Source: Halogeometricum sp. S3BR5-2
GTDB taxonomy: Archaea; Halobacteriota; Halobacteria; Halobacteriales; Haloferacaceae
Assembly (NCBI RefSeq): GCF_031624635.1
Contig: NZ_JAMQOQ010000002.1
Span: 62,001-126,000, forward strand
Direction: 5' to 3'
DNA length: 64,000 nt
In this document: positions 39,445 through 44,721 of the stretch, one piece after another
Layout: every line of letters starts with the position of its first letter
Numbering within the stretch: position 1 is the stretch's first letter
The notes under the pieces: model-generated
What the model was told of the DNA's origin: nothing
The model's input: the letters and a program-made list of their open reading frames with translations, nothing else
Database searches by the model: none
Made by a program: the position numbers and the translations under genes

Positions 39445-42264
39445 ATGAACCGGGACGGCCACGACCACGACGACGCGAGTCACGGTCACGACGGTGACCA
39501 CGACCACGACGCGAGTGGCCACTCCCGCGGCGGCGGGAGCGACCGCGGTCACGATCACAGTCACGACCACGCCGACCACGACGACACCGCCACCTGCGGG
39601 TGCGACGACGGATGCGACACCGCCACCGCTCCGGACTCCGTCTCCGACGGGCCGTCTGCGTCGGCGTCCCCCGACGGAAGCGACGAGGGCCGGACCCTCC
39701 GGCTTTCAGTCCCGGAGATGGACTGCGCCTCCTGCGCGGAGAAGGTGACGAAGAGCGTCCGCGGCGACGCGGGCGTCCGCGAGGTGGACGCGCAACCGAC
39801 CACGGGAACGCTGTACGTCCGCTTCGACGGGGCCGAGACGGACGACGACGCCGTCCGGTCGCGTGTCGAGAGGGCCGGCTACGCCGTCGCCGACACCGAG
39901 ACGGCGACGTTCTCCGTCCCCGAGATGGACTGCGCCTCCTGCGCCGGCAAGGTGGAGAACGCCTTGGACGGCGTGGCCGGCGTCACCGAACGGCAGACCC
40001 AACCGACGACGGGCGAGGTGACGGTCACGTTCGACCCCGGCACGGCCTCGCGCGGCGAACTGGTCGCGGCCATCGAGGGTGCGGGCTACGCCGTCGAGGA
40101 CGGCGACGGCGGCGACTCCCCGCGCGACGTGTGGCGCACCCCGCGCGCGCGGAAGACGGGGGTCGGCGCCGTCTTCCTCGCCGGCGGCCTCGTCTTGGAG
40201 TTCCTCCTGCCCGGCTTGGACGCCCTCCTGGCCGCGCCGGCCGGCTACGAGATACACGCCGCGTGGGTCCTCTACACCCTCGCCGTCCTCCTCGCGGGGA
40301 TTCCCGTCCTGCGGAACGGCTACTACTCCGCGAAGAACGCCAGCCTCGACATCGACCTCCTGATGTCCGCCGGCATCCTCGGCGCGATGGCGGTGAACAT
40401 GCCGTTCGAGGCGGCGACGCTCGCGGTCCTGTTCAGCGTCGCCGAACTGCTGGAGCGGTTCTCCATGGACCGCGCGCGCAACTCGATGCGCGAGTTGATG
40501 GAACTGTCACCGGACACGGCGACGGTTCGCAGGGACGGCGAGGAGACGGTCGTCCCCGCCGAGGACGTGGCCGTCGGCGAGACGGTGCTCGTCCGCCCCG
40601 GCGACCGCATCCCCCTCGACGGCGTCGTGACGGAGGGAACCTCGGCGGTGGACGAGTCGCCCATCACCGGCGAGTCCGTCCCCGTCGACAAATCGCCCGG
40701 CGAGGAGGTGTTCGCCGGCAGCATCGTCGAGGAGGGCTACCTCGAAGTGGAGGCCACGTCGGCCGCGAGCGACTCGACCCTGTCGAAGGTCGTCGAGATG
40801 GTCGAGGACGCCAACCGCGAGAAGACCGAGGCCGAGCGGTTCATCGACCGCTTCGCGCGCTACTACACGCCGGTCATCGTCGTCGGCGCGGTGCTCACGG
40901 CGGCGGTGCCACCCCTCCTGTTCGGCGACCCGTTCCGCGAGTGGTTCGTCCGCGGCCTGACGCTCCTCGTGGTCGCCTGCCCCTGCGCGTTCGTCATCTC
41001 GACGCCCGTCTCCGTCGTCTCGGGCATCACGTCCGCGGCGCGCAACGGCGTCCTCGTGAAGGGCGGCCAGCACCTCGAAGCGATGAGCGACGTCGAGGTG
41101 GTCGCCGTCGACAAGACGGGGACGCTCACGACGGGCGAACTCGGCGTCACCGACGTGGTCGCCCTCAACGGCAACGACTCGACCGAGGTGCTCGGCTGTG
41201 CCGCCGCCATCGAGTCGCGCAGCGAACACCCCATCGCGCAGGCCGTTACGGCCCACGCCGCCGACCGCGACGTGCCGGAGCGAGAGATTCGCGACTTCGA
41301 GTCCATCACCGGCAAGGGCGTGAAGGCGACCCTCGACGGGGAAGTGCACTACGCGGGCAAGCCCGGCCTGTTCGCGGACCTCGGGTTCGACCTCGAACAC
41401 GCGCACGTGGCGACGGATGGGGGTGAGCGAACCGACGGTTCGCGAGTCTCGTCGGACCCGCGGTCCGACGGCGGACAGATGGTCGAAGACGCCCGAGACT
41501 GCGACCACGGAAGCTACCTCGACCTGACGAACGAGGTCATCCCGCGCCTCCAGTCGGAGGGCAAATCCGTCGTCCTCGTCGGCACCGAAGACGAGATAGA
41601 GGGCGTCGTCGCCGTCGCGGACACCGTCCGCCCCGAGGCCGAGTGGACCGTCTCGCGCCTCCGCGAACTCGGCGTCTCGCGGGTCGTGATGCTCACCGGC
41701 GACAACGAGCGCACGGCGAACGTCATCGGCAAGCGCGTCGGCGTCGACGAGGTGCGGGCGGACCTCCTCCCCGAGGAGAAGGTCGAGGCCGTCCGCGAAC
41801 TCACCGACGAGCACGAGTCGGTGGCGATGGTCGGCGACGGCGTCAACGACGCGCCCGCCCTCGCCGCCGCGACGGTCGGAATCGCCATGGGCGCGGCGGG
41901 CACGGACACGGCGCTGGAGACGGCCGACGTGGCCCTGCTCTCGGACGACCTGACGCGCCTGCCGTACCTCGTCGACCTCTCATCGAAGACCGCCGGCGTC
42001 ATCCGGCAGAACGTCTGGGCGTCGCTCGCCGTGAAGGGCGTCCTGACCGTGGCCGCGCCCCTCGGTCTCATCACCGTCGCCACCGCCATCGTCGTCGGCG
42101 ACATGGGGATGAGCCTCGGCGTCACCTCGAACGCCCTGCGCCTCGCGGGCGTCGAACCCGACGCGGCCGCCTCCGACGACTGGGGCGGGAGCGGAAGCGA
42201 AGACGGGAACGAGGGCACGAACGGGAACGCGGACGGAGACGACCTCCGAGACGCGGCGGCCTGA
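39445..42264 (+). CDS. Zn/Cd/Pb-type P1B ATPase with two HMA domains
   Basis: A 939-residue heavy-metal exporter. Residues 1-45 are His/Asp-rich (HDHDDASHGHDGDHDHD). Two heavy-metal-associated domains follow, each with MDCASC at about residues 91 and 160. The membrane CPC motif (VVACPCAFVIS) is near residue 511, DKTGTLTTGELGV near 556, and the nucleotide-binding SEHPIAQAV with GDGVNDAP near 797. The final helix has GDMGMSLG, matching the Asp-containing motif of Zn/Cd/Pb exporters (P1B-2) and not copper exporters. Residues about 652-690 form a Ser/Asp/Gly insertion in the N-domain, absent from typical members. Confidence 0.92.
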   Translation: MNRDGHDHDDASHGHDGDHDHDASGHSRGGGSDRGHDHSHDHADHDDTATCGCDDGCDTATAPDSVSDGPSASASPDGSDEGRTLRLSVPEMDCASCAEKVTKSVRGDAGVREVDAQPTTGTLYVRFDGAETDDDAVRSRVERAGYAVADTETATFSVPEMDCASCAGKVENALDGVAGVTERQTQPTTGEVTVTFDPGTASRGELVAAIEGAGYAVEDGDGGDSPRDVWRTPRARKTGVGAVFLAGGLVLEFLLPGLDALLAAPAGYEIHAAWVLYTLAVLLAGIPVLRNGYYSAKNASLDIDLLMSAGILGAMAVNMPFEAATLAVLFSVAELLERFSMDRARNSMRELMELSPDTATVRRDGEETVVPAEDVAVGETVLVRPGDRIPLDGVVTEGTSAVDESPITGESVPVDKSPGEEVFAGSIVEEGYLEVEATSAASDSTLSKVVEMVEDANREKTEAERFIDRFARYYTPVIVVGAVLTAAVPPLLFGDPFREWFVRGLTLLVVACPCAFVISTPVSVVSGITSAARNGVLVKGGQHLEAMSDVEVVAVDKTGTLTTGELGVTDVVALNGNDSTEVLGCAAAIESRSEHPIAQAVTAHAADRDVPEREIRDFESITGKGVKATLDGEVHYAGKPGLFADLGFDLEHAHVATDGGERTDGSRVSSDPRSDGGQMVEDARDCDHGSYLDLTNEVIPRLQSEGKSVVLVGTEDEIEGVVAVADTVRPEAEWTVSRLRELGVSRVVMLTGDNERTANVIGKRVGVDEVRADLLPEEKVEAVRELTDEHESVAMVGDGVNDAPALAAATVGIAMGAAGTDTALETADVALLSDDLTRLPYLVDLSSKTAGVIRQNVWASLAVKGVLTVAAPLGLITVATAIVVGDMGMSLGVTSNALRLAGVEPDAAASDDWGGSGSEDGNEGTNGNADGDDLRDAAA

Positions 42265-42328: not shown

Positions 42329-43435
42329 ATGCCGTCTCGAAGGTCCTCGGCGGTGGCGCTCGCGTTCGCCCTCCTCCTGGTGTTCGCCGGCTGCATCGCC
42401 CCGGTGTCGGACCGGCCGCCCGAATCCGCCGACGGCGGGACCGCGGCGACGTCGAACGCCGCCCAACGGGAACGCGCCGAACGGGTGACCGGCACCGGCG
42501 CGGTCGCCGCCGACCGGGAGAGCCCGTGGGGGTCGGAGCCCATCGTCGTCGCCGTCGAGGACGACGCGGGCACCGGTCGCGACTGGACGCCCGTCGTCCG
42601 CGAGGCGACGGCCTACTGGGAGGAGAACGCCGGGCGCTACGCGGGGTACGACGTCGACTACGAGGTGCGGCCGAACGCGACGGACCCGGACCTCGTGCTA
42701 CGCTTCGTCTCCGAAGTCCCCGAGTGCGACGGCGCCGACGACGCCGCCGGATGCGCGCCGCTCATCACCGACCGGCGGCAGGTGGACCGCCCCGAGACGG
42801 TGTACGTCCGCACGGCCTTCTCCGACGAGTCCACCGTGCTCGTCGTCCAACACGAACTCGGCCACACGCTCGGTCTCGACCACGCGAACGCCCCCCGCGA
42901 GGTGATGGCCAGCGAGTCCGTCCTCCACACGACGGCGCGACCGAACGCCACCGAGCGCGAGTTCCCGTGGAACGACGCCGAGTTCTCGGTGTACGTCGAC
43001 GCGGCGAACGCCTCCGACCCCGAGGGGGCGCGCGAACAGGTGGGACACGCCCTCGACTACTACGAACGCGGCGCGCCGGGGATGCCCGACAACCTCTCCT
43101 TCGCGGTCGTCGACGACCCCGCCGACGCCGACGTGGTCGTCGAGTTCGCCGAGGAACCGCCGTGTTCGCGGAACGCCGCCTCCTGCGGCGCCACGCGCGG
43201 GTGGGACCCCGACGGCGACGGCGCCGTCGAGACGTACTCGGACCTCGAAATCGTCCTCGTGGACCTCGACACCGACGCCGTCGGCTGGCACGTCGGCTAC
43301 TGGCTGGCGTTCGCCCTCGGCGCGGAGGGCCCCGCGGAGATGCCCGACCCGTTCCGCGACGCTTCCTACCGCGACCGGCGGAGCGAGTGGTGGGCGACGG
43401 AGGACGAGGGGGACGACGGGAACGAGACCGAGTGA
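42329..43435 (+). CDS. Lipoprotein with matrixin-type metalloprotease domain and dead duplicate
   Basis: A 368-residue lipoprotein: lipobox FAGC at about Cys 24. Residues about 70-200 form a domain with QHELGHTLGLDHAN (HExxHxxGxxH zinc motif) followed by REVMASES, the Met-turn, so it is a metzincin of the matrixin type. A second domain from about 215-350 repeats the layout (ALDYYERG against ATAYWEENAG; ADADVVVEFAEEPP against DPDLVLRFVSEVPE). Its equivalent site reads WHVGYWLAFALGAE and lacks the zinc ligands. The first copy is probably an active surface protease; the second may bind substrate or regulate. Confidence 0.83.
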   Translation: MPSRRSSAVALAFALLLVFAGCIAPVSDRPPESADGGTAATSNAAQRERAERVTGTGAVAADRESPWGSEPIVVAVEDDAGTGRDWTPVVREATAYWEENAGRYAGYDVDYEVRPNATDPDLVLRFVSEVPECDGADDAAGCAPLITDRRQVDRPETVYVRTAFSDESTVLVVQHELGHTLGLDHANAPREVMASESVLHTTARPNATEREFPWNDAEFSVYVDAANASDPEGAREQVGHALDYYERGAPGMPDNLSFAVVDDPADADVVVEFAEEPPCSRNAASCGATRGWDPDGDGAVETYSDLEIVLVDLDTDAVGWHVGYWLAFALGAEGPAEMPDPFRDASYRDRRSEWWATEDEGDDGNETE

Positions 43436-44412: not shown

Positions 44413-44721
44413 ATGAACAGTGCCGCCCCGTCGTTCGACCCCGAGGTGCTGATGACGTCGCTGAAACAGGAGTTCGGCGGCAGGGAACCCGAGCGACGCG
44501 TGGTCGCCCGACAGGCCCGCGACCTCGCCGACTCCGGGAAGCCGCAACGCGACCGCGGCGAACCGCTCACCGTCGAAGAAGTGGTGCGGCAGATGGCCGA
44601 CGCGCCCGACGGATCGACGCTCGCCGAGCGCTGGAACTGGTGGCTCGGGGCGCTCGAAGCGGCCCACGGCGGCTACCGGGACTTCCAAGTGACGCGCATC
44701 CCGACCGGCGACCGGGATTAG
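44413..44721 (+). CDS. Small protein of unknown function
   Basis: A 102-residue cytoplasmic protein with no recognised domain. It reads like a helical protein with the conserved-looking VVARQARDLADSGKPQRDRGEPLTVEEVVRQMADAP region, and a Trp-rich end (WNWWLGALEAAHGGYRDFQ). The stop overlaps the convergent next gene by four bases. Start ATG 44413 follows the membrane protein by 49 bases. Confidence 0.68.
   Translation: MNSAAPSFDPEVLMTSLKQEFGGREPERRVVARQARDLADSGKPQRDRGEPLTVEEVVRQMADAPDGSTLAERWNWWLGALEAAHGGYRDFQVTRIPTGDRD

Follow-up and report, generated by a model that had tools for sequence, protein, structure and literature searches.

The gene at 42329-43435 of the window (the whole stretch of 64,000 nucleotides analysed here) encodes a tandem of two matrixin-type metzincin domains, the first with a complete zinc-binding motif and the second without it. 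We hold this identity of the parts, and the inactivation of the second copy, to be close to certain. The explanation as a whole, in which an anchored protease keeps an old dead copy of its own domain as a non-catalytic partner, is given a probability of about one half. The open reading frame of the earlier note was confirmed in position, strand, length and start codon (Table 1). Its main proposal, a duplicated metzincin with one inactivated copy, was likewise borne out by profile comparison, reciprocal profile matches, a fold match and more than 100 relatives. The gene is present in single copy in its 4.66-Mb haloarchaeal assembly, and the closest named relatives of the protein are those of Halogeometricum pallidum (83%) and H. 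limi (68%). The signal sequence, ending in LLVFAGC, fits a predicted lipoprotein; a lipobox of similar kind is present in most homologues, whose start codons were chosen to favour one. The active domain and the C-terminal domain (C domain) abut without a long linker.

Table 1. Features of the tandem metzincin gene (coordinates refer to the window).
Feature	Coordinates	Strand	Residues	Basis or remark
Complete gene, tandem active/pseudo matrixin-type metzincin, predicted lipoprotein	42329..43435	+		368 aa, ATG start
Signal sequence ending in lipobox-like LVFAGC (Cys22)	42329..42394	+	1-22	sequence
Low-complexity linker, fast evolving	42395..42517	+	23-63	dN/dS
Active matrixin-like metzincin domain	42518..42940	+	~64-204	PF00413, family profile vs MMP-14
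Zinc-binding/catalytic motif HELGHTLGLDH	42851..42883	+	175-185	column conservation
Met-turn methionine	42905..42907	+	Met193	invariant, 35/35 rows
Cys133 to Cys142, probable disulphide, active domain	42725..42754	+	133-142	both Cys columns invariant
C-terminal pseudo-metzincin domain	42941..43393	+	~205-355	HHalign, model
DPDGDGAVE calcium-loop-like loop, strands 3/4 of pseudo-domain	43205..43231	+	293-301	conservation
Pseudo-active-site helix WHVGYWLAFALG, without zinc-ligand triad	43286..43321	+	320-331	conservation
PDPF, at Met-turn place of pseudo-domain	43343..43354	+	339-342	profile alignment

Judged from its sequence, the N-terminal domain (N domain) is a matrixin-type metzincin and a predicted zinc protease. 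It matches PF00413 with 29.2 bits (cut-off 24; E = 9.6e-7), and its family profile matches MMP-14 across the whole domain with an E value of 3e-9 in a comparison with PDB profiles, in which karilysin was also matched. The active site claimed for the first half was found in place, with QHELGHTLGLDHAN at residues 174-187 followed by the Met-turn methionine. In all 35 aligned N-domain rows the H, E, G, H, G and H columns of HELGHTLGLDH are invariant, as are those of Met193, Cys133 and Cys142; the two cysteines probably form a disulphide. One relative, L092, has Pro in place of the third His, the third zinc ligand. Membership in the archaemetzincins was rejected, the NCBIfam model archmetzin giving 22.6 bits against a cut-off of 145.

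Homology of the two domains was assessed at several levels. When the two halves were aligned as single sequences (BLOSUM62), a score of 79 was obtained with gap penalties of 8/1 and was reached by 7 of 2000 shuffles; with penalties of 11/1 the signal was weak (score 55, reached by 23 of 2000). HHalign comparison of N and C family profiles gave a score of 70, whereas 100 column shuffles reached at most 17.7 and the reversed profile reached 16.3. In a comparison of profiles built from 35 selected N rows and 28 selected C rows, the probability was 98.3 and the E value 2.6e-14 over 125 columns. Earlier N and C profiles had left out 13 proteins that are single-domain, broken or differently built (L062, L065, L066, L075, L076 and L079-L086). 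Searched against the whole genome of the organism, an N-domain profile built without C sequences found three matches: the N domain itself (1.1e-56), the C domain in second place (1.1e-6), and a match elsewhere that is confined to the motif (2.7e-5). Chance resemblance of the halves was rejected on the profile score relative to shuffles, the E value and the own-genome match. Most of the sequence signal comes from the first ~80 residues of the two halves, and the second halves of the two domains, compared alone, do not align in HHalign (probability 1.3). The equivalence of the active sites is therefore deduced from the structure model and from their positions.

Structure prediction had been suggested in the earlier note as a check on the two halves. 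AF2 modelling of the full-length protein from four rows reached a pLDDT of 39 and gave no confident interdomain geometry. For the C domain alone, modelled from eight rows (four C and four N), pLDDT was 73.8 and pTM 0.77. As this alignment contains metzincin rows of the N domain, the fold match of the model is supportive rather than independent proof. The model has the order strand-helix-strand-strand-strand-strand-helix-helix, which is that expected of matrixins. Foldseek returned 12 matches at E ≤ 1e-3, all of them MMPs or karilysin, and in the VIA list all 50 rows were MMP/karilysin structures (Z 10.0-10.8, rmsd 2.6-3.6, 119-130 residues), the best being karilysin 8b2q_A with Z 10.8, rmsd 3.1, 125 residues and 14% identity. 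When the C profile was compared with PDB sequences, karilysin appeared only at E = 0.17, below unrelated matches.

No model in Pfam or NCBIfam matched the C domain. Its site, WHVGYWLAFALGAE (residues 320-333), lacks the zinc-ligand triad, as the earlier note had stated. With G182 anchored to G331, residues Y324, W325 and F328 fall at the positions of H175, E176 and H179, and helix 315-329 of the model stops just short of G331. H321 (in WHVG) lies one helical turn upstream of the ligand positions; in the alternative register, with H321 set to H175, one His is kept while the Glu and the second His are still lost. None of 112 C domains contains HExxH, and a lone His at 328 occurs in 15. Other residues are strongly conserved in this set: D295 and D297 in 100 C domains (the remaining 12 are gapped), E301 in 111, P339 in 105, W320 in 101, H321 in 100 (replaced by Y or N in 10), G323 in 96 and W325 in 82. 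Matrixins have a metal-binding S-loop between strands 3 and 4, and we infer that the DPDGDGxxE loop binds metal, probably calcium. For six pairs (NG86), dN/dS was 0.32-0.45 in the C domain, 0.25-0.37 in the N domain and 0.43-1.05 over residues 2-63. The C domains are under purifying selection. Given this and their conservation, the idea of a single degraded gene was rejected.

Homologues were found in 98 of 170 genomes of the family. At the level of the class, 157 of 391 genomes had a match to the C-domain profile, some of them partial matches to single-domain proteins; in the phylum sample the count was 94 of 392, and the matches listed for families outside the class are confined to the first half of the profile, ending at or before position 90 in all but two. 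Ninety proteins were extracted, and the alignment was made without L032-L034, which duplicate named genomes, and without proteins of ≤180 aa; loci L002, L022, L040 and L042 had no extracted ORF. The search for relatives with one or both copies active, also proposed earlier, showed exactly one HExxH in 125 of 127 extracted homologues and two in none, so that relatives with both domains active were discarded as a possibility for this set; the two proteins without the motif (L070, L079) are broken or masked. Among homologues from other families, HExxH occurs only in the domain preceding the C domain (40 of 40). An independent N-profile match (E < 0.01) behind the active domain was obtained for 106 of the 125, a number that includes some single-domain proteins.

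Several relatives depart from the two-domain form. Single-domain active proteins exist within haloarchaea (L080, L083-L085), from which it follows that the catalytic fold has no strict need for a partner. Three proteins are triples of the order pseudo-active-pseudo, in which the N profile detects an extra domain without HExxH ahead of the active one (L063, 2.3e-17; L175, 6.4e-8; L176, 3.3e-22). In a test for an independent origin of this N-terminal dead domain, with L176 alone, grouping with the C domains was not rejected (AU p 0.36). Proteins L071-L074, L077, L078 and L088-L093, of roughly 500 aa and from one genus (g21), carry an N-terminal extension, which in the two scanned (L071, L074) is CARDB/Ig-like below Pfam cut-offs. 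In L066, L075, L076, L082 and L185 the active domain is followed by a different, helix-rich-looking C-terminal part and no pseudo-domain. Six archaeal loci outside haloarchaea (L179-L184) have single active domains and no pseudo-copy. One of them, L184, runs from a single-domain matrixin relative in frame into zinc-ribbon-like and P-loop-like stretches and is possibly a fusion. Plasmid records label homologues 'matrixin family metalloprotease' or 'hypothetical protein'. In viral_contigs one search returned no homologue, and another returned six loci whose similarity is confined to the surroundings of the active-site motif.

The gene neighbourhood was inspected as well. Located 64 bases upstream on the same strand is a gene (39445-42264, +) for a heavy-metal P-type ATPase of the Zn/Cd type, which has two HMA matches and a His-rich N-terminus; of 44 orthologous loci, 19 also have such a gene upstream, and many of the loci have only about 1.5 kb of flank. 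A gene at 44413-44721 (+) encodes a 102-aa protein without Pfam or NCBIfam match and, in 43 of the 44 loci (duplicates L032-L034 left out), follows the metzincin gene on the same strand. It is present in 166 of 170 family genomes and is thus a core gene, so its linkage to the metzincin gene says little, and a conserved operon was rejected as functional evidence.

In a tree of 70 rows a branch with support of 100/98 separates the 30 C domains from the other rows. As they form one clade, a single, early origin of the dead copy is the simplest account. Whether it arose by duplication in place or by fusion of two different metzincins bears on its ancestry, and fusion would be compatible with any role; in that case a separate line of single-domain archaeal proteins could have given rise to the C domain. 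The non-haloarchaeal single-domain proteins, whose first halves are matched by the C profile with E values down to 9.2e-13, stand in the unrooted tree between the group of N and single domains and the C group, a position with which both duplication and fusion are possible. With these proteins as outgroup, however, N and C domains are sisters (94/77, not firm), and we regard fusion as somewhat unlikely.

The active-pseudo pairing is conserved in many relatives, and the dead copy therefore almost certainly has a job. The earlier note had suggested that it may position substrate or inhibit activity; the present results do not separate these two roles. In the explanation that we favour, the protein would be a membrane-anchored, extracellular haloarchaeal matrixin-like zinc protease in which the N-terminal domain does the proteolysis. 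The C-terminal domain would be an old copy of the same fold that had already been without its zinc site when the family began to diversify, and that was retained as non-catalytic partner of its active twin. The pseudo-domain might pack on the active domain, where it would form part of the substrate-binding surface or stabilise that surface in high salt; a metal in the DPDGDGxxE loop, probably calcium, and the conserved WHVGYW helix would keep it in place. For a cleft-forming or stabilising role of this kind we put the odds just short of even.

Alternatively, the pseudo-domain might be an independent module that binds the cell surface, the S-layer or a substrate and serves only to deliver the protease to its target. 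The conserved, non-catalytic WHVGYW and DPDGDGxxE features would suit such a module, as would the addition of other modules in relatives such as L071 and L074. Yet no known binding motif is present in the C domain, and its best-conserved residues lie in the metal loop and the pseudo-active-site helix, a pattern that a structural role would explain just as well; targeting alone is in our judgement unlikely.

In a further reading, autoinhibition, the dead twin would act as a built-in inhibitor or latency domain, shielding the active site until this is freed by calcium, salt or cleavage. In its favour, nothing obviously resembling a matrixin propeptide or a cysteine switch precedes the active domain, residues 23-63 being free of Cys, and the C domain has a conserved metal-loop-like motif. 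We nevertheless consider autoinhibition distinctly unlikely, as there is neither structural evidence for it nor a conserved cleavable linker between the domains, and single-domain active relatives live without the dead twin. The idea of the dead domain as a metal-gated regulator of the live one, acting through the DPDGDGxxE loop and the WHVGYW helix that took the place of the zinc site, is decidedly improbable. If true, active-pseudo and pseudo-active-pseudo proteins would be haloarchaeal single-chain metzincin pseudo-heterodimers with an intramolecular switch, of which no description was found for metzincins in open-access full texts. A different activity of the C domain, with metal bound at a rearranged site made up of H321 and acidic residues, would fit the conservation of H321 and the near-invariant D295, D297 and E301 but is highly improbable, since it lacks the catalytic Glu and the second His, H321 is replaced in some relatives and the acidic motif resembles a calcium loop.

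The pairing of a protease with its dead copy, described previously as unusual, is the common form in this haloarchaeal family and has parallels in M16A/C and carboxypeptidase D. Open-access full texts yielded no case of a pseudoprotease fused to a live metzincin and no account of this haloarchaeal matrixin/metzincin family. The family is a compact and widespread system for asking what a dead protease domain does when covalently tied to a live one, and its members with one, two or three domains provide natural controls. Like archaemetzincins (M54), the protein is an archaeal metzincin, but it lacks the four-Cys extended motif given for them in the abstract of PMC3427221. Archaeal matrixins of Methanosarcinaceae are treated in PMC12587646, which regards those of Halobacteriales as sparsely sampled; the single-domain archaeal relatives outside the class match both the N and the C profile, their assignment to Methanosarcinaceae being a guess, and five of the six loci (all but L183) have a hydrophobic stretch behind the active domain. 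Carboxypeptidase D (M14) is described in PMC11266112 as having tandem peptidase domains with an inactive last copy. It combines two active domains with one dead domain, and the present protein, with one of each, belongs to a different family and fold. The role proposed for the pseudo-domain would resemble that of the dead half of M16A/C peptidases, which completes the cleft; the fold of M16 peptidases is different from that of metzincins. The passages of PMC11266112 on M16A and M16C describe a live protease half and a homologous dead half in one chain, the dead part helping to form the active centre, and an HxxEH motif; the present protein, unlike M16A, M16C and MPP, has HExxH, and an active-centre role of its dead part is only inferred. 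As in matrixins of family M10 (MMP-14, karilysin), the active domain has HExxHxxGxxH and a Met-turn and scores above the PF00413 cut-off, and the model of the pseudo-domain matches MMP/karilysin structures. Unlike matrixins, the 368-aa protein has no haemopexin match and is an archaeal predicted lipoprotein in which the active matrixin domain is followed, in the same chain, by another that lacks zinc.
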